A stretch of 64,000 bases of DNA. Origin: Natrialba sp. SSL1 (GTDB taxonomy: Archaea; Halobacteriota; Halobacteria; Halobacteriales; Natrialbaceae). Positions 2,835 to 23,309 of this stretch are shown here, one piece after another. A program made the position numbers and the translations under genes. The DNA lies in contig NZ_MASN01000052.1 in NCBI RefSeq assembly GCF_001861355.1, positions 62,001 to 126,000 on the forward strand, read 5' to 3'. Each line of letters starts with the position of its first letter. Positions within the stretch are counted from its first letter, which is position 1. Below the pieces are notes generated by a model. It searched no databases, was not told where the DNA came from, and worked only from the letters and a program-made list of their open reading frames with translations.

Positions 2835-4535
2835 TCACTCGTCGGTCACTGGCACATCTACGACTGCAGGTCCCGCCGTCGTCAGTGCCTCATCGAGTAC
2901 CGACTCGAGTTCCCCCGGCTCCTCGACAGTCACTCCCGTCGCACCGTGGGCGGCGGCGCTCGCTGCGATATCGACGGGCGGCTCAAAGTCAAAGCCGTCG
3001 TATTCGTACTCGTCGGGGTCGCCGCCGAGCAGGTTCGCCGTGTTCTCCTTGAGGATCCGGTAGTTGCGGTTGTCGGGGACGACGACTGTGAGGTCGAGCT
3101 CGTTTCGAACCGCCGTATACAGCGCCTGTGGGTAGTACAGGTACGAACCGTCGCCGACGTAGCCGAGCACCGAGCGGTCGCCGCCGGCTTCCCGCTCTGC
3201 GACCGCAGCGCCTACGCTGGCCGGCAGTCCGTAACCGAGGCCGCCGCCTTTCGTGCCCAGGAGCTGGTTGGCCTCAAACTCGAACTCGTCGAACAGCGGG
3301 GGCGACGCGGTGATGGCCTCGCTGACCACGAGTGCGTCCGGTGCGACGCTGTCGAACGCCCGGGCGAGCCCCGCTTTCGTCAGCGTGCCGTTGATCGTTT
3401 CGGGGACAGGATCAGTGTCGTGCGCGCTCGCCCAGTCACGGACGGACTCGAGTCGACGCTCGCGTTCGCCGTCGTCGACGATGTCGCTGACACGAGCGGC
3501 GAGATCCGAGAGAACGGCGGTGGGGTCGCCGATCACCGCGGTCTCTGCAGGTGCGTGCTTGCCGAGTTCCCACGCGTCGGGCGAGATGTGGACGCGCGTC
3601 GCCTCATCGGGGACGAGTTGAGTCGTCGGCCGCGTTACCGTCGTGTTCGTCGAACAGCCGACGAAAACGAGCGTGTCGGTGTCCATCGCGGCCGCCGAGC
3701 CGGGTGCTTTCGTCGAGAGAGCGCCCTGCCACTGGTCGTGATCCGTCGGGAAGTTCGCCTCGTAAGCGAGGATTTCGTTGTGGACGCGCGCCCCTGTTGC
3801 TTCGGCGAGGGCGACCGCAGCGTCGACCGCTGCCGGGCCGCTGCGACCGATTTCGTCCCCGAGGACGAAGACCGGTTCGTCAGCGTCGGCGAGGGCTGTG
3901 GCTGCCTCCTGAATCGCCGCCTCGTCACCGCGACCCGCCGTCGGAATGCGACCGAGCGGCTCCGGTGTGACTGTCGTCTCCTCCGTCTGCACATCGACCG
4001 GAATCGAAAGGAAGACCGGCCCCGTCGGCGGCGTCAACGCGGTTCGGACGGCCCGACGGACCATCGTCGGCAGCGCGTCGACGTGCTTCACCTCGGCGCT
4101 CCACTTCGTGAACGGCTCGGCCATCTCGACGAGGTCGCCGCTGAGGATCGGTTCCTCCTGCTGGTAGTCCCGGCTGTGGGTTCCCGACGTGACCAGCAGC
4201 GGCGCGCCCGAGACGTCCGCGTTGTAGAGGTTTCCCAGCCCGTGTGCCAGTCCGCCGGCGAGGTGAAGGTTCGCGACGCCGAGCGGGAGCACGTCGTCAG
4301 CATCGCGATCATCAGTACCAGTTGCCGATTCGTTCGCGTGATGTCGCCGTCGCATCGCATACCCCGCCGCCGCCCCCACCGCTACGTCCTCGTGCAACCC
4401 GAGTACGTACTCCAGTTCACTCTCGACGAGCGACTGCATGAGCGGGAGTTCGGTCGTGCCGGGATTGCCGAACAGGGTCGTCACACCGTACGATTCCAGA
4501 CTGTCGATGAAGAGATCAGCACCCGTCGCTGCCAT
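2835..4535 (-). CDS. Thiamine-diphosphate enzyme (acetolactate synthase / benzoylformate decarboxylase-like)
   Basis: The 566-residue protein has the three-domain layout of the TPP enzyme superfamily. FGNPGTTELP is near residue 22, the cofactor-activating Glu is in GLHEDVAVGAAAGYA (E49), a central domain has VFVGCST, and the C-terminal TPP motif GDGSYLYYPQ starts near 461 and ends in the DNRNY region. The sequence LGTKGGGLGYGLPASVGAA precedes it. Overall it looks closer to benzoylformate decarboxylase than to the anabolic acetolactate synthase. No regulatory subunit gene is adjacent. The substrate cannot be fixed from sequence. Confidence 0.8.
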   Translation of the reverse strand: MAATGADLFIDSLESYGVTTLFGNPGTTELPLMQSLVESELEYVLGLHEDVAVGAAAGYAMRRRHHANESATGTDDRDADDVLPLGVANLHLAGGLAHGLGNLYNADVSGAPLLVTSGTHSRDYQQEEPILSGDLVEMAEPFTKWSAEVKHVDALPTMVRRAVRTALTPPTGPVFLSIPVDVQTEETTVTPEPLGRIPTAGRGDEAAIQEAATALADADEPVFVLGDEIGRSGPAAVDAAVALAEATGARVHNEILAYEANFPTDHDQWQGALSTKAPGSAAAMDTDTLVFVGCSTNTTVTRPTTQLVPDEATRVHISPDAWELGKHAPAETAVIGDPTAVLSDLAARVSDIVDDGERERRLESVRDWASAHDTDPVPETINGTLTKAGLARAFDSVAPDALVVSEAITASPPLFDEFEFEANQLLGTKGGGLGYGLPASVGAAVAEREAGGDRSVLGYVGDGSYLYYPQALYTAVRNELDLTVVVPDNRNYRILKENTANLLGGDPDEYEYDGFDFEPPVDIAASAAAHGATGVTVEEPGELESVLDEALTTAGPAVVDVPVTDE

Positions 4536-4671
4536 AGCGCTATCTCTCGATGGAGGTCTCTTATATCATAATCACGGATGGATTGACGTGTCTCTGCAAG
4601 GTCACGAGTGTCACCCACGAGCGGCGCGTGGAAGCGAAACCTTGAATCGACGCGCTTGCAAACCTCCGGCC

Positions 4672-4956
4672 ATGAGTGACGAGGACGATTCCGAGCCGGC
4701 CGTCGAACTCGGCGAGCACGTACCCGTCGAGGGCGCACCCCTCGCTCGCGTGAGTTCGCGACTGACCTGGCCGAAAGAGCGCAGCGAGGTCGACCGCATG
4801 GAGGGCGACAGCGTCATCCGCACGCCCGAGGGCCCGGTCGAACTCTCGACGGTACTCGAGTCGGTCGACGAGACGTACTTCCAGCGTCGCCAGGAGTTCG
4901 AGTCTCACGTGCGCGACGTGATCGGAACCGGCCCGGTCCCGACCGCGGACGAGTAA
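4672..4956 (+). CDS. Small acidic haloarchaeal protein (DUF5789-like)
   Basis: The protein has 94 residues and is hydrophilic. It contains LARVSSRLTWPKERSEVDRMEG, then IRTPEGPVELSTVLESVDETYFQRRQEF. This pattern is found in a short conserved haloarchaeal family of unknown function (I believe DUF5789). The start is the ATG at 4672. Only 6 bp separate its stop from the GTG start of the CPBP protein, so the two are probably cotranscribed. Confidence 0.65.
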   Translation: MSDEDDSEPAVELGEHVPVEGAPLARVSSRLTWPKERSEVDRMEGDSVIRTPEGPVELSTVLESVDETYFQRRQEFESHVRDVIGTGPVPTADE

Positions 4957-4962
4957 CGACCC

Positions 4963-5670
4963 GTGGCGACCGAGGACGACCGGCGTCTCGCCGGCCTGCT
5001 CGGCTGGGTTCGCGACCAGACGGATCGCCTTTCCTGGTTTCAGAAGTCGTTACTGACCGGCGCGGTGCTCACGCTGCTGTGGATGCACTACGTCCCCGGC
5101 GAGCTCGACCGTCGCGTCGTCGTCGACAGTATCCTGTTGATCGGCGGCCCGCTCACGCTCGGCCTGACACACGGTCGCCACATCGGCTGGAACATCAACC
5201 GGGTCGCCGTCCGCAACGCGGTCTTGCTCTCGATGTTCGTCCTTCCCTTCTACCTCGTCGGCTCGACGCTGCCGACGATCCGCGAGTTCTACCCGATGTG
5301 GGAGACCTCGACAGCCCCCGGCGAGTTCGTCCCGCACGCGTTTCAGCTGTTCATGCTCGCGCTCGCCGCCGAAACCTACTACCGCGGGTTGCTCTGTGTC
5401 GGCGTCAAGGATATCGGCTTCAAGGCGGTGTTCATCAGCCCCATCGTCTACATGATCCACCACGCCTCGAAGCCGCCGATCGAGTTCCTGCTCTCGGGGC
5501 CGACGGACGTCCTCTTCGGCGCAGTGGACTACAAATCGAACTCGATTCTCCCCTCCGTTATCGCCCACGGCGTCGGCCTCGTCCTCCTCGACTGGCTCGT
5601 CCTCCACGACCCGCTGTTCGACCCGGGACTGTTCCTCGGGGTACTCGAGTGGACTCCGATCCCGCTGTAG
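4963..5670 (+). CDS. CPBP-type intramembrane protease homologue with degenerate motifs
   Basis: The 235-residue polytopic protein starts with GTG. It carries the outline of the CAAX-protease/bacteriocin-processing (Abi) fold: ETYYRG at 137-142, YMIHH near 163-167 and AHGVGLVLLD at 201-210. The first Glu of the usual EExxxR motif is Ala136, and the Asn/Asp expected four residues after His202 is Leu, so peptidase activity is doubtful. It follows the small DUF5789-like gene after 6 bp. Confidence 0.65.
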   Translation: MATEDDRRLAGLLGWVRDQTDRLSWFQKSLLTGAVLTLLWMHYVPGELDRRVVVDSILLIGGPLTLGLTHGRHIGWNINRVAVRNAVLLSMFVLPFYLVGSTLPTIREFYPMWETSTAPGEFVPHAFQLFMLALAAETYYRGLLCVGVKDIGFKAVFISPIVYMIHHASKPPIEFLLSGPTDVLFGAVDYKSNSILPSVIAHGVGLVLLDWLVLHDPLFDPGLFLGVLEWTPIPL

Positions 5671-5736
5671 CGCGGGCTGCGTCCAAGATCCTTGGCGGAC
5701 CCAACTGCTTTTCATCGCCGAGTGCGAATCGCCTGT

Positions 5737-6201
5737 ATGTCACTTCCCTTCGATCCCGCCGCGATCGACCCGGAGGCCTACGGCGAAAAACAGGCCGTAC
5801 TCGAGATGGACCACGAGGAAGCAGTCGAGTTCGTCCGCGAGGTCTGTACCGACTGCGGCTTCGGGATTCCGGTCGAGTTCTCGCCCTCCGAGTTGCTGAA
5901 CGAGAAGGTCGGTGCCGACCGCGATCCGTACTACGTGCTCGGGGCCTGCAACCCCGAAATCGCGAATAAGGCACTCGACGAGACCAAGCAGATCGGCGGC
6001 CTGTTCCCCTGCAACGTAATCGTCTGGGAGGAGGAACCGGGTCGGCAGCGCGTCTACCACGTTTCGATCATGAAGATTGCCCGCCTGCTCGGCACCGCGC
6101 CGGACAACGAGGCCTGGGACGAGATTCTCGACGAAACCGGCGAGCTTACCGACACGCTGTTCGAGGAACTCGAGTCCGCTGACGCCGCCGTCTCGCCGTA
6201 A
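5737..6201 (+). CDS. DUF302 family protein
   Basis: The protein has 154 residues with no signal peptide or membrane helix. It contains HEEAVEFVREVCTDCGFGIPVEF, then LGACNPEIANKALDETKQIGGLFPCNVIVWEE, the classic DUF302 core (LGACNP and PCN motifs). Members bind small ligands or metals, but the function is not settled. I chose the ATG at 5737; the frame runs further upstream without protein-like sequence. Confidence 0.8.
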   Translation: MSLPFDPAAIDPEAYGEKQAVLEMDHEEAVEFVREVCTDCGFGIPVEFSPSELLNEKVGADRDPYYVLGACNPEIANKALDETKQIGGLFPCNVIVWEEEPGRQRVYHVSIMKIARLLGTAPDNEAWDEILDETGELTDTLFEELESADAAVSP

Positions 6202-6286
6202 TTCGGTCTGTCACGCTGCGTTTTCATCGGTTGCTCACCCGCTACAAGATACCAAGACTTACGTGTCAGACGGCTCACGTAGCGCC

Positions 6287-7423
6287 ATGGACGTTCGAAC
6301 CGCCGCCTTCGCCCTCCTCCTCCTCGTCCTCGCCGCAATTGCTGCCCTGATGGTCGCACCGCTGCTCCAGTACGTGATGGGTGCTGCGCTCCTCGCGTTC
6401 ATTCTCTATCCGGCCTATGAGCGACTCGAACCCAAACTCGGCACACGACTCAGTGCGCTCCTGTTGACTGTTGTCGCCATCGTCGGCGCGATTGTCCCGC
6501 TCTTGCTCGTATCCCTGATCGTGCTCGATACCGTCGTCTCGTTCCTGGTTAGCTTCGACGCCGCTGGCTCTATCGAAGACCTCCGAACGATCGCAGAGGA
6601 CGACCTCGGTATCGACACCGAACAGATTCAGTCGCTCGAAACTGCCGTCGTCGAGGAACTCGAAGACTCCGTCGCGGGTGCACTCGAGCTCGCCCTGTTC
6701 GAACTCGTCGGTCTCCTCAACCGCGGAATCGAGATGGGGATCGGGCTGCTCGTGTTCATTTTCCTGCTGTACTACCTGCTCGCCGACGGCGACACCTTCG
6801 TCGCCTGGCTGCGCGATGTCGTCCCGCTCAAAGACCACATTCGCGAGGAGCTATTCACCGAGATCAACGTCGTGACCTGGGCGGTGATCAAGAGCCACGT
6901 CCTCGTCGCGGTGATCGAGGGACTGCTCGGTGGACTCGGCTTCTACCTGCTCGGCGTGCCGAACGTCGCCTTCTGGACGGTGATCATGATCATCGTCTCC
7001 TTCCTGCCGGCGATCGGCGTCTGGCTCGTCTGGGGGCCCGCGGTGGGGTATCTGCTGATGACCGCGAGTCCAGTGAGTGCGGTCGCGCTGTTGCTCTATG
7101 GAATTACGGTTCTCTCGCTGGTCGACAACTACCTTCGGGCGTACGTGGTCGACCGCGGCTCCGGGCTCCACCCTGCAGTGGTTATCGTCGGTGTCATCGG
7201 CGGAATCTACCTGCTCGGCATCATGGGCTTGTTCCTCGGTCCGGTCCTGCTCGCTGTGTTCAAAGCGGGACTGAACGTCTTCAACAAGACGTCATTGTCC
7301 GCCAGCCAGCCCGAAAGCGGGTCGGTACAGCCGCCAGAGCCACCCGACTCTCCCGAGCCAACCGGACCGACTGGACGGGGACCAGCAGACGCAGGTCCGA
7401 ATACGCCGGGGGCGAACGACTGA
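6287..7423 (+). CDS. AI-2E family transporter (UPF0118)
   Basis: The 378-residue membrane protein has about eight predicted helices. The soluble loop between helices 3 and 4 and the ending LVDNYLRAYVVDRGSGLHPAVVIVGVIGGIYLLGIMGLFLGP are family hallmarks. Members export small molecules or act as Na+/H+ exchangers, so the substrate is open. The tail (about 345-378) is Pro/Gly-rich. The ATG at 6287 places the first helix at residue 5; earlier starts would add unrelated sequence. Confidence 0.85.
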   Translation: MDVRTAAFALLLLVLAAIAALMVAPLLQYVMGAALLAFILYPAYERLEPKLGTRLSALLLTVVAIVGAIVPLLLVSLIVLDTVVSFLVSFDAAGSIEDLRTIAEDDLGIDTEQIQSLETAVVEELEDSVAGALELALFELVGLLNRGIEMGIGLLVFIFLLYYLLADGDTFVAWLRDVVPLKDHIREELFTEINVVTWAVIKSHVLVAVIEGLLGGLGFYLLGVPNVAFWTVIMIIVSFLPAIGVWLVWGPAVGYLLMTASPVSAVALLLYGITVLSLVDNYLRAYVVDRGSGLHPAVVIVGVIGGIYLLGIMGLFLGPVLLAVFKAGLNVFNKTSLSASQPESGSVQPPEPPDSPEPTGPTGRGPADAGPNTPGAND

Positions 7424-7554
7424 CTCTGCAACCAACGGGGCGACAAAACGGCGGGATTCTCTCCTCGTAGAAAAATAGACCCGATCATCGACCACTGCCT
7501 CACGGCACAGCCGCGACACGACCTGCAACACCTCCTGACCGAGCTATACGCACC

Positions 7555-8991
7555 TCAGTCCGCACTCTGAACCCGCTCTGCGCGGTGCGTCGTCGGCACA
7601 TCCCACCCCATCGCAACCATTGCGAACAACACCAGCGGCGAGAGGAACCCGAACAGGTAGAACGGCGCGTACTCGAGTGTCGCCACGCCAGTCGCCGAGG
7701 CCATGAAGACACCGCCGGCGTGCCACGGGATGAGCGCGCCGGTTGGCGTCCCGGCAGCCTCGACAGCTCGCGAGAGTTCGTCGCTATCCAGCGAGAAGTC
7801 CTCGTAGAGGTTCCGGAGCGTCATGCCCGGGAGGACGATGCTCATGTACTGTTGGGCGGTGAGGACGTTGATCGCCATCGCCGAGACGCCGGTGCCGGCG
7901 ATGAGCGAGCCGGAACTGCGGACACCCTGCGAGAGGTGGTGAGCGAGGACGGCGAGCACGCCGGTCTTCTCGAGAAGGCCGCCCAGGACGAGAGCGGCGA
8001 CGACAACAGTAATCGTCCAGGCCGATCCAGTGAGTCCGTCGGTTGCGAGCAACTCGTTCACGAGCGAGGAGGTTGTCTCCGGATCGGTCCCCTCGATGAA
8101 GACCTCCCACGCCGGGACGAAGCCGGTTCCCTGGACGAGAATTGACGTGATGACGCCGGCGAACGCGCCGACGACGAGCGTCGGGAGGGCGGGATACCCG
8201 CGCAGTGCGAGTCCGAAGGTGACGGCCAGCGGAGCGAAGACGAGTAGGGAAAGTGAGTACGCTCCTGCCACTGCGGTCTGTATCTCGTCAATCTGGCCGG
8301 ATGGAACGGTGCCGCTGGCCTGTAGACCGAGAGCGGCGAACGCGAGGACGGCGATGCCGAACGCGATGGCGGTTCCGGTTCGCATGCGGTAAATGTGCTC
8401 GTACAGCGGCGTGTTCGTCACGCCGGCGGCGAGGTTCGTGGTGTCCGAGAGCGGCGACTGCTTGTCGCCCGCGTAGGCACCGGAGATGACCGCACCGACG
8501 GTCATTGGTGCGGGCACGCCCAGCCCGGAGCCAATGCCGACGAAGGCGACACCGAGCGTTCCCACCGTCGTCCACGAGGAACCGATAGCGAACGCGACGA
8601 CTGCCGCGAGGACTGCTGCGACAGGCAGGAATATCTGCGGTGAGAGGAGTTCGAGACCGTAGTACATCATCGCAGGAATCGTCCCGGCGTCGACCCAGGT
8701 GGCAATGAGTGCGTAGATGGTGAAGATAATCAAGATCGCTTGCATCCCCATGAGGAGTGCGTCCGCGGCACCCTCGTAGAGGTCGTCCCAGCTGTAGCCG
8801 AGATAGTGGCCGAACGCGCCGGTAACGACGATACTCCACAGCAGCGGCACGTGCGGATCCAGCCCAAGGAGTGCCGAGCCGATGCCGAGGAAGACGACGA
8901 CAGAAATCACGGGGACGAGTGCGAGCCGAAACGTGGGTCGTCGCTCCGGATCGAGTTCGTCAAAGGTAGTTGGTGTAAAGTCGAGTGCCAT
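7555..8991 (-). CDS. nhaC: NhaC family Na+/H+ antiporter
   Basis: The 478-residue, 11-12-helix protein has the NhaC core GAYAGDKQSPLSDTTNLA (near residue 195), SSWTTVGTLGVAFVGIG and a second half with GTPTGALIPWHAGG. NhaC proteins exchange sodium for protons, or in some lineages transport amino acids, and suit a halophile expelling Na+. An AT-rich box CTTTTATTC on the coding strand (9013-9021) sits 22-30 nt before the ATG, so the mRNA is probably leaderless. A short inverted repeat lies just upstream of it. Confidence 0.88.
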   Translation of the reverse strand: MALDFTPTTFDELDPERRPTFRLALVPVISVVVFLGIGSALLGLDPHVPLLWSIVVTGAFGHYLGYSWDDLYEGAADALLMGMQAILIIFTIYALIATWVDAGTIPAMMYYGLELLSPQIFLPVAAVLAAVVAFAIGSSWTTVGTLGVAFVGIGSGLGVPAPMTVGAVISGAYAGDKQSPLSDTTNLAAGVTNTPLYEHIYRMRTGTAIAFGIAVLAFAALGLQASGTVPSGQIDEIQTAVAGAYSLSLLVFAPLAVTFGLALRGYPALPTLVVGAFAGVITSILVQGTGFVPAWEVFIEGTDPETTSSLVNELLATDGLTGSAWTITVVVAALVLGGLLEKTGVLAVLAHHLSQGVRSSGSLIAGTGVSAMAINVLTAQQYMSIVLPGMTLRNLYEDFSLDSDELSRAVEAAGTPTGALIPWHAGGVFMASATGVATLEYAPFYLFGFLSPLVLFAMVAMGWDVPTTHRAERVQSAD

Positions 8992-19507: not shown

Positions 19508-19600
19508 GCGTCAGGTGTCAGGCCTCAGGCGTCAGGCGTTGGGTGTCAGGTATTAGGTGTCAGATGTTGGGCGTCAGGTATCAGGTGCCAGGCGTCAGAT
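19508..19600. repeat. Short-unit imperfect tandem repeat (GTCAGG-type)
   Basis: About nine decayed copies of a 9-10-bp unit (GTCAGGYRT, with variants such as TTAGGTGTCAG and TTGGGCGTCAG) run between the HARP gene and the next gene's stop codon, which overlaps the last copy. The tract is non-coding and of minisatellite type. Confidence 0.75.
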
Positions 19601-21378: not shown

Positions 21379-22077
21379 TCAGTGTTGGTCCGTTTCTGCG
21401 ATCTCGCGAATCCGATCCGCTCCTGCCGGAACGTAACCGCCGTGATAGCAGAGCGTGTGCTCGATATCGAGCTCGGCGAGCGTCGCGACGGACTCGAGTG
21501 CCCGCTCCATCTCTGGCGTAAACTCCGGCTTCGGTCCGGCAAGTTGGTCGGGACCGTCGCCCGGACCGTCTGCAACCAGCGCGTCGCCGGCGACCAACAG
21601 CCCGCCGTCGGGGAAGTACAGTGAGATGTGGCCTGGCGCGTGCCCCGGCGTCTCGACGACCTCGAACGGGCCCGCGAGCGTCGGAACGCGAACGCCGCCA
21701 GCGAGTTCGATATCGACCGATACTGGCGGATACCTGTCGTCTCCACTGCCCTTGATCGGATCGCGCTCGCCCGTCACGTACGGCGTCTCGTCGCGGTGGG
21801 CCGCGACCACCGCGTCGGTGCGTTCGAGCAACGTCGCAAGCGCGCCCGCGTGATCACCGTCGTGGTGCGTGAGCACGACCAGCCAGATGTCTGTGAGGTC
21901 GTACTCGAGTGCCCGTAGGTGCGTTTCGATGGCGTCGACCGCGCCGGAGTCGGCGGGGCCGATGTCGAACAGGACGAGGCCGCGCTCGGTTTCGACGACC
22001 GCGGGCGCGATCGCGAGGTCCTGTCCGCCGTAGTCGACTGTGATCGGCAGTGCGTGCAAACCGGCATCAGTGTCCAT
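21379..22077 (-). CDS. MBL-fold metallo-hydrolase (HxDxDH variant)
   Basis: The 232-residue protein has a metallo-beta-lactamase fold. The metal motif reads LTHHDGDHAG near residue 70, an HxDxDH form in place of HxHxDH, followed by VVETPGHAPGH, LVAGDALV and a final His in CYHGGYVP. Similar enzymes are glyoxalase-II-like or lactonase-like hydrolases, so the substrate is unclear. Its stop lies 13 bp beyond the convergent ligase gene's stop. ATG 22077 is divergent from the terpene-synthase-like gene. Confidence 0.8.
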   Translation of the reverse strand: MDTDAGLHALPITVDYGGQDLAIAPAVVETERGLVLFDIGPADSGAVDAIETHLRALEYDLTDIWLVVLTHHDGDHAGALATLLERTDAVVAAHRDETPYVTGERDPIKGSGDDRYPPVSVDIELAGGVRVPTLAGPFEVVETPGHAPGHISLYFPDGGLLVAGDALVADGPGDGPDQLAGPKPEFTPEMERALESVATLAELDIEHTLCYHGGYVPAGADRIREIAETDQH

Positions 22078-22175
22078 GTGTGGCGGCTATGGGTCGCCGC
22101 CCCGATAGCTCTGCGGGGTTCTCTCACTACACGACAGCGATGCAACTAATACAGTCAGTTTCCATTGGAAATACG

Positions 22176-23309
22176 ATGGAGAACGAGTCTACCATCGGAC
22201 ACCGCTCTTCGCTCGTCCCACGAGTCCCCGCGCTCGACAGCGAAACCGATCCGATTACGGACCGAAAACAGGACCCACTCCCCGAATCGATCACCGGCAC
22301 CGACCTTCTCGCACGCTACGAGGAGATCCTCGGGGACCGGGGGTACTCGAGTTGGCGCTGGCTCTACAGCGCGTTCCCCGAGTTTCGACTCTCGTGTGTT
22401 GCCACCGACTGTGAAGAGAGAGTCCGGACGGCGAAACTGCTCTCGACACTGTTCGTCACGATCGCGGACGATGTTGCAGAACTGCACGGCGACCGGGCCA
22501 CGTTCGCACAACTGGCGAACGTCCCGTTCGACAGCCAGCGCGCCGACCCCGACCGCGCGGGCGTCGACGGTCCGGTGGTCGACCTCGCGACCGACGTCTG
22601 GAGCCGTTTTCGGGAACTGTACGACGCGAGCCCGCGTGCGGGCGAATTTGCCGACATCCTCGCGTTCGACCTGCGGCAGGTGTTCGACGCCATCGAGTAC
22701 TCGCTGCTCGCGAATCGCGACCCGAATCTCGTCTCGGAGCAGGAGCTGTGGACCTACGACTCGTACAACATGATGGTGTTCGTCCACGCCCTCACCGATC
22801 TGGCGAACGCGCCGACGTTCGACCGAGGAGAACTCGCGTCGCTCCGGCAGGTGCTCGACAGAACCCAGCGCATGGCCCGGATCGGAAACTGGCTCGCGAC
22901 CTGGCGGCGCGAACTCGTCGAGGGCGACTACAGTTCGGGCGTCGTCGTCCGGGCGGTCGAAACGGGCGTGATCGAACGCGACGCGTTAGATGGAGATGGG
23001 TTGTACTCGAGTCCAGCTGGTGACGAAAGGACGAATCAAGACACGGAGGCGCAGACAGACACGGGCACAAAGACAGCCGCGGGTCGAGACACGGGAGCAG
23101 AAACAGACCCAACGAGAGACGTCGACACGCTCATTCAGGCGATCGAAGACTCTTCCGTCGAGGCCTACTTCCTCGACCGCTGGCACGTCGAGTGCGCCGA
23201 CGCGGCGCGCTTCGACGACGCGCTCGCAAGCGTGGATCTCGGAGCCTACCTCGATGGACTCCAGACCGTTCTGTGTTCCCACATCGGGAAGCGCAACGCG
23301 CCGCGCTAG
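22176..23309 (+). CDS. Terpene-synthase-like all-alpha protein (putative class I terpene cyclase)
   Basis: The 377-residue, mostly helical protein has a DDxxE motif at 98-102 (TIADDVAELH) and an N-x3-T-x3-E motif at 238-246 (IGNWLATWRRE), 140 residues apart. These two metal-diphosphate motifs and their spacing are those of bacterial class I terpene synthases. A hydrophilic Thr/Asp/Glu linker at about 280-315 precedes a last helical segment with RW at 335-336 in place of the usual RY. The ATG at 22176 follows an AT-rich box (CTAATA near 22147) by about 26 nt; an earlier ATG at 22140 is possible. A degenerate or unrelated helical protein remains possible. Confidence 0.55.
   Translation: MENESTIGHRSSLVPRVPALDSETDPITDRKQDPLPESITGTDLLARYEEILGDRGYSSWRWLYSAFPEFRLSCVATDCEERVRTAKLLSTLFVTIADDVAELHGDRATFAQLANVPFDSQRADPDRAGVDGPVVDLATDVWSRFRELYDASPRAGEFADILAFDLRQVFDAIEYSLLANRDPNLVSEQELWTYDSYNMMVFVHALTDLANAPTFDRGELASLRQVLDRTQRMARIGNWLATWRRELVEGDYSSGVVVRAVETGVIERDALDGDGLYSSPAGDERTNQDTEAQTDTGTKTAAGRDTGAETDPTRDVDTLIQAIEDSSVEAYFLDRWHVECADAARFDDALASVDLGAYLDGLQTVLCSHIGKRNAPR

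Follow-up and report, generated by a model that had tools for sequence, protein, structure and literature searches.

A gene in the analysed stretch of Natrialba sp. SSL1 DNA (64,000 nucleotides, hereafter the window) very probably codes for a divergent class I terpene synthase that is catalytically competent, as judged from sequence conservation and from structure models. Terpene cyclisation is hardly recognised in archaea, though archaeal membranes consist of isoprenoids. The gene belongs to a large, unannotated and apparently old family, whose catalytic residues are kept from haloarchaea to methanogens. The first-pass annotation had already read its product as terpene-synthase-like; the terpenoid fold and the conserved motifs support that reading, with catalysis as its predicted part. 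The features of the locus are as follows.

21379–22077, reverse strand: metallo-beta-lactamase-fold hydrolase, divergent neighbour (PF00753, E = 1e-25); functional link putative
22078–22175, no strand: 98-bp region between the divergent genes, presumed site of both promoters
22176–23309, forward strand: class I terpene synthase-like gene, 377 aa (open reading frame, profile and fold model)
22467–22481, forward strand: DDVAE, predicted aspartate-rich Mg2+-binding motif (codons 98–102, at the end of helix 77–103)
22767–22772, forward strand: Asn-Met codons 198–199 at the helix G1/G2 break, proposed linker and effector (conservation, model)
22878–22880, forward strand: Arg codon 235, proposed helix-H pyrophosphate sensor (conservation and alignment to Sat1646/Stt4548)
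22887–22913, forward strand: NWLATWRRE, the NSE triad (codons 238–246, on helix 217–248, helix H)
22992–23108, forward strand: variable hydrophilic linker, about residues 273–311, separating the catalytic part from the C-terminal helices (low pLDDT)

A search of its own genome found the gene as a single copy, and the reverse-strand frame directly opposite 22176–23309 is broken by a stop. The closest named relative is Natrialba hulunbeirensis (89% identity).

Conserved motifs and predicted fold

The first-pass annotation had pointed to a DDxxE at residues 98–102 and an N-x3-T-x3-E at 238–246. Both are present in the 377-residue open reading frame, with the starts of DDVAE and NWLATWRRE 140 residues apart. 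Such a pair, defined as DDxx[DE] and Nxxx[ST]xxxE separated by 130–150 residues, occurs in 101 of 112 family members, in 3 of 473 unrelated haloarchaeal open reading frames of at least 250 aa taken from the retrieved loci, and in 48 of 20,000 shuffled versions of the window protein. The motif pair is well above chance, yet it is no proof by itself; conservation is the stronger evidence.

All six motif positions fall within the 25 of 377 columns whose conservation across 116 homologues reaches at least 95% when D/E and S/T are pooled, and the chance that six pre-chosen columns would all lie among the 25 best conserved is about 5e-8. Among the 116 haloarchaeal members, D99, N238, R245 and E246 are invariant, residue 242 is always Thr or Ser, residue 102 is always Glu or Asp, and D98 is Asp in 112; mean column identity is 38% while the motif residues stay fixed. 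An alignment of 88 sequences has R55, W60, W62, D99, D208, R224, R235, N238, W239, W243, R245, E246 and D251 invariant. In a set of 130 sequences that takes in methanogens at about 20% identity, D99, N238, T/S242 and E246 persist, save in one decayed copy (L140) or at gaps. D98, E102, N238 and E246, whose free variation had been named as a ground against the terpene synthase reading, thus do not vary freely among homologues. Where the bacterial consensus NDxxSxxxE has Asp after the NSE Asn, haloarchaea have an invariant Trp.

The window protein, as modelled by AlphaFold (pLDDT 89.8, pTM 0.88), has helices arranged as in a class I synthase: helix G is broken (188–199 and 201–210), and a long helix H (217–248) carries the NSE residues. 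The fold had been set as the test by which the reading could be refuted: the best 50 PDB matches listed by Foldseek are all terpene synthases for each of two models. For the window model (probability 1.00, best E = 2.2e-4) the TM-scores are modest (0.41–0.54 by query length), in part because of the disordered linker. The second model, of a Methanosarcina-type homologue with about 21% identity and no linker, was chosen to test the family beyond one sequence. It has a pLDDT of 93.6, and its best match is Sat1646 (TM-score 0.66/0.70, RMSD 4.0 Å), followed among the 50 listed by hydropyrene synthase and other terpene synthases. In the fold alignments, identity to characterised synthases is very low (10–18%).

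A profile search was among the checks proposed by the first-pass annotation. PF19086 (Terpene_syn_C_2) scores the window protein at 21.1 bits (E = 3e-4), below its gathering threshold of 23.7 bits; across the family it matches 69 of 88 homologues at E ≤ 1, the best at 8.7e-8. An hhalign comparison of 130 family members with 21 terpene synthases (pentalenene synthase, checked against 1ps1, 18 bacterial plasmid-borne proteins and two haloarchaeal plasmid relatives) gave P = 1.2e-5 over 233 columns and kept both motifs in register, pairing DDVAE with DDLFD and NWLATWRRE with NDIASLEKE of pentalenene synthase. The control against polyprenyl synthetase gave P = 0.14 over 37 columns. We count this homology test as supportive rather than decisive, because against the six bacterial sequences alone it is weaker and variable (P 0.0005–0.11); when the family profile was set against a single pentalenene synthase it was uninformative, so that the 21-synthase alignment was needed. 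A phmmer search of the PDB sequences with the single window protein and an NCBIfam search of that protein returned no match.

The hydrophilic linker described in the first-pass annotation is real: it spans about residues 273–311, is disordered in the AlphaFold model (mean pLDDT about 46–62 across residues 271–310) and is the place where most genome matches break. The claim of an RW in place of the usual RY pair did not hold. Residue 335 is Arg in 45, Glu in 44 and Gln in 16 of 116 homologues, and only W336 is kept (114 of 116); by profile alignment the RY equivalent maps to the extreme C-terminus, where Arg is found in 68 of 116 and the Tyr is unconserved. The annotation as a whole was therefore sound on fold and motifs and mistaken on this pair, and it lacked the relocated sensor arginine, the distribution, the methanogen branch and the neighbouring regulators.

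The pyrophosphate sensor and the proposed reaction

Sat1646 and Stt4548 carry their sensor arginine (Arg220 and Arg236, respectively) on helix H and have Asn182/Tyr183 at the G1/G2 break as linker and effector (PMC9814573). The canonical helix-G arginine is missing from both enzymes, which are nevertheless active (PMC9814573), and it is therefore not obligatory. Our alignment places Arg220 and Arg236 three residues before the NSE Asn, the position of R235 in the window protein, and NWLATWRRE is aligned to NDLASYERD of Sat1646.

R235 is present in all 116 haloarchaeal sequences and in 122 of 130 overall. A search for a helix-G sensor found no column between 185 and 203 with Arg or Lys in more than 38 of the 116 sequences, against 20 of 21 comparison synthases. 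The two arrangements exclude each other: of 130 sequences, 122 have R235 without R/K195, 8 have R/K195 without R235, and none has both or neither. The eight reversed cases are seven Methanosarcina-type sequences and L140, the decayed copy without NSE residues. The Methanosarcina-type sequences have R/K-x-x-S/T at the G break, which is the canonical helix-G arrangement, and in the family this canonical sensor is present only in their branch. Mutually exclusive arginines are the pattern that would be expected if each did the same job. Since the swapped sequences form one clade, the swap was probably a single evolutionary event, and the apparent move of the sensor arginine between helices offers a natural experiment on the effector triad.

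At the G1/G2 break, residue 198 is Asn in 106 and residue 199 is Met in 109 of the 116 sequences. N198 and R235 are 37 residues apart, as compared with 38 between Asn182 and Arg220 in Sat1646. We propose N198 as the linker of the effector triad, a role that relies on this spacing and on the model because the HMMER alignment has a gap there.

From the computed fold, motif conservation, aligned position of the relocated arginine, distribution and neighbourhoods, we infer catalysis, Mg2+ use, substrate and product. D98, D99 and E102, together with N238, T242 and E246, would bind three Mg2+ ions and so hold the diphosphate of a linear prenyl diphosphate. The substrate would come from the archaeal isoprenoid pool. 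GGPP (C20) is the most plausible, being the chief prenyl diphosphate of archaea and given that several diterpene synthases are among the best structural relatives; FPP and geranylfarnesyl diphosphate are alternatives. R235 on helix H would, with N198, sense the diphosphate in place of the helix-G arginine, and the M199 region would be the effector at the G1/G2 break. Ionisation would lead to carbocation cyclisation, or to elimination giving a linear terpene, in an aromatic-rich pocket from which the terpene would be released. The first-pass annotation was right that no polyprenyl diphosphate gene adjoins the synthase gene: the three polyprenyl synthetase genes of the genome are on other contigs, from where they could supply the substrate, and three SQS/PSY-family genes also lie elsewhere in the genome.

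Distribution, gene neighbourhoods and alternative readings

A class-wide search found homologues in 120 of 391 haloarchaeal genomes, representing 40 of 86 genera. A phylum-wide profile search added genomes outside the class (groups f13 and f29, E = 1e-101 to 1e-23), and homologues are found in Methanosarcina- and Methanocella-like genomes; we take genome G696 to be Methanosarcina acetivorans C2A, and group f29 is presumably Methanocella. In all six haloarchaeal plasmid records checked, the homologues are annotated ‘hypothetical protein’, and no paper on the family was found in the literature collection searched. In one Natrialba-like genome (G263), two members of the family lie in tandem (L115:5326–7708). 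Among the Methanosarcina-like loci L141–L147, the copy in L145 is split by a stop, and L148 and L149 are fragments, which points to decay of the gene in some lineages. L140, the lone copy without NSE residues, looks decayed elsewhere too.

The divergent arrangement of the synthase and metallo-beta-lactamase genes is kept in 36 other related loci. A search of the 22078–22175 region for a sigma-70-like site found none, which is expected in an archaeon. Between genes further upstream in the window, at 19510–19598, about 13 imperfect copies of a 7-base unit (GTCAGGT) form a short tandem array.

The neighbourhoods of other lineages are different. With the lineage that has the metallo-beta-lactamase neighbour set aside, 79 loci remain, 51 of which have a sensory regulator within two genes of the synthase gene: a Bat-type PAS/GAF/BAT/HTH_10 protein in 30, a FilR1-like protein (FilR1_middle) in 13 and a PAS/HATPase kinase in 8. 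A HalOD1-like protein is near the synthase in 31 of the 79. Depending on the clade, the regulator gene lies downstream of the synthase gene or upstream of it, in the latter case either divergently or on the same strand. Eight haloarchaeal genomes of 3.2–4.5 Mb have 18–58 HTH_10 matches each, so that at about 3800 genes per genome an HTH_10 gene would be expected within two genes in about 3% of cases by chance; the observed rate is 38% of the 79 loci. The association extends to the methanogens: in all six Methanosarcina-type loci with intact context, a PAS protein is encoded directly upstream on the same strand (a PAS/HisKA_2 kinase by Pfam in all three loci scanned), and in g103 a PAS kinase adjoins the synthase homologue. 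Bat activates the bacterio-opsin and carotenoid genes in Halobacterium, which is a precedent for a Bat-type regulator beside an isoprenoid gene.

Several further arrangements were seen around these loci. In L041, L042, L044, L046 and L050 (approximately 3700–8300), genes for a DUF7344 protein, the terpene synthase, a FilR1-cluster regulator and a HalOD1-like protein follow closely on one another on the same strand, 0 to a few bases apart in L041, L042 and L044. Genes for HalOD1 and for HTH_10 regulators are repeatedly found no more than a few hundred bases from each other in the eight haloarchaeal genomes, suggesting that the two often function in pairs. Some family members also have LeuA-type, cobalamin-pathway and RNA-ligase-like genes nearby, which were set aside as ordinary synteny.

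These neighbourhoods suggest that the haloarchaea and methanogens with the gene make a terpenoid under sensory control, possibly a signal. It is possible, if on the doubtful side, that the synthase and the adjoining Bat-type, FilR1-like or PAS-kinase protein form a cassette in which the terpenoid is sensed or controlled, a reading that adds a role to the synthase and does not compete with it. The excess of HTH_10 neighbours, the variety of arrangements and the Methanosarcina-type loci argue for it. However, its basis is neighbourhood, and the loci within a clade are not independent, with 11 state changes on the tree. Haloarchaea also have many such regulators, and their genomes contain HalOD1-Bat pairs at other sites too. 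No sensory regulator adjoins the gene in the window or in most of its lineage, and a regulated terpenoid with a pigment-like or protective role would give the same picture. The fuller proposal, that archaea of two classes share a synthase-sensor cassette in which the terpenoid of a helix-H-sensor enzyme is the signal, or the sensor-controlled output, of Bat-type, FilR1-type or PAS-kinase regulators, is unlikely on present evidence; if true, it would be terpenoid signalling of a kind hitherto undescribed in archaea. The recurrent siting of the gene by environmental sensors makes a role for a small terpenoid testable in genetically tractable hosts.

The same regulators, the missing RY pair and canonical helix-G sensor, and the invariant Trp residues, which are unusual for bacterial synthases, could instead be taken as signs that the terpenoid fold has been repurposed, either as a prenyl-diphosphate-binding regulator or for a different reaction, for example plain hydrolysis or prenyl transfer. 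We consider this quite improbable: the metal-binding positions are all kept across archaeal classes, the sensor arginine is swapped and not lost, and the one copy without an NSE motif looks decayed elsewhere. A relative of isoprenyl diphosphate synthases or of squalene/phytoene synthases is scarcely credible and was rejected: these share the superfold and one aspartate-rich motif with the family, but the window protein has no second DDxxD or DxxxD motif and no Pfam polyprenyl_synt (PF00348) or SQS_PSY match, none of them is among the best 50 Foldseek matches listed for either model, the hhalign comparison with polyprenyl synthetases was poor, and the genome has three genes of each family elsewhere.

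Comparison with known terpene synthases

The class I terpene synthase reading finds its closest parallel in Sat1646 and Stt4548, bacterial class I diterpene synthases that act on copalyl diphosphate (PDB codes 7e4n and 7e4m; PMC9814573). Among PDB sequences they match the family profile best, and Sat1646 is the best fold match of the Methanosarcina member. The family resembles them in the terpenoid fold, the Asp-rich and NSE motifs, the predicted helix-H sensor arginine and the proposed linker and effector at the G1/G2 break. It differs in being archaeal, in its low identity to them (about 10%), in the Trp that replaces Asp after the NSE Asn and in the extra linker.

With the bacterial synthases of PF19086, such as pentalenene synthase, hydropyrene synthase and VenA, the family shares the fold, both motifs and their spacing, and aligns over most of the length, although the sequence similarity is remote. 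The helix-G arginine (20 of 21 there) and the RY pair (Arg in 20 and Tyr in 18 of 21) are conserved in those enzymes and unconserved in the family. The non-canonical classes IB, IC, ID, IE and IF, which are without known class I motifs (PMC11234867), likewise combine a class I-like fold with little similarity to canonical enzymes. Because the DDxx(D/E) and NSE motifs are kept, unlike in IB–IF, we place the family in class I with a variant sensor.

Terpene-synthase-like proteins are also encoded on plasmids of the haloarchaea Actinarchaeum halophilum and Halocatena marina, but these form a separate lineage. Those synthases, of bacterial type (NZ_CP071308.1, L150:7494–9841; NZ_CP110250.1, L151:7467–9851), are 25–28% identical to pentalenene synthase within a longer protein, and one of them is annotated as SRPBCC family; a polyprenyl synthetase gene directly follows the synthase gene, and FAD-dependent oxidoreductase genes are nearby.

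A preprint by Samusevich et al. (bioRxiv 10.1101/2024.01.29.577750, cited in PMC12797696) announces archaeal terpenoid biosynthesis in its title, so the general idea is not new; by that title, its enzymes share with the present family a part in archaeal terpenoid biosynthesis.
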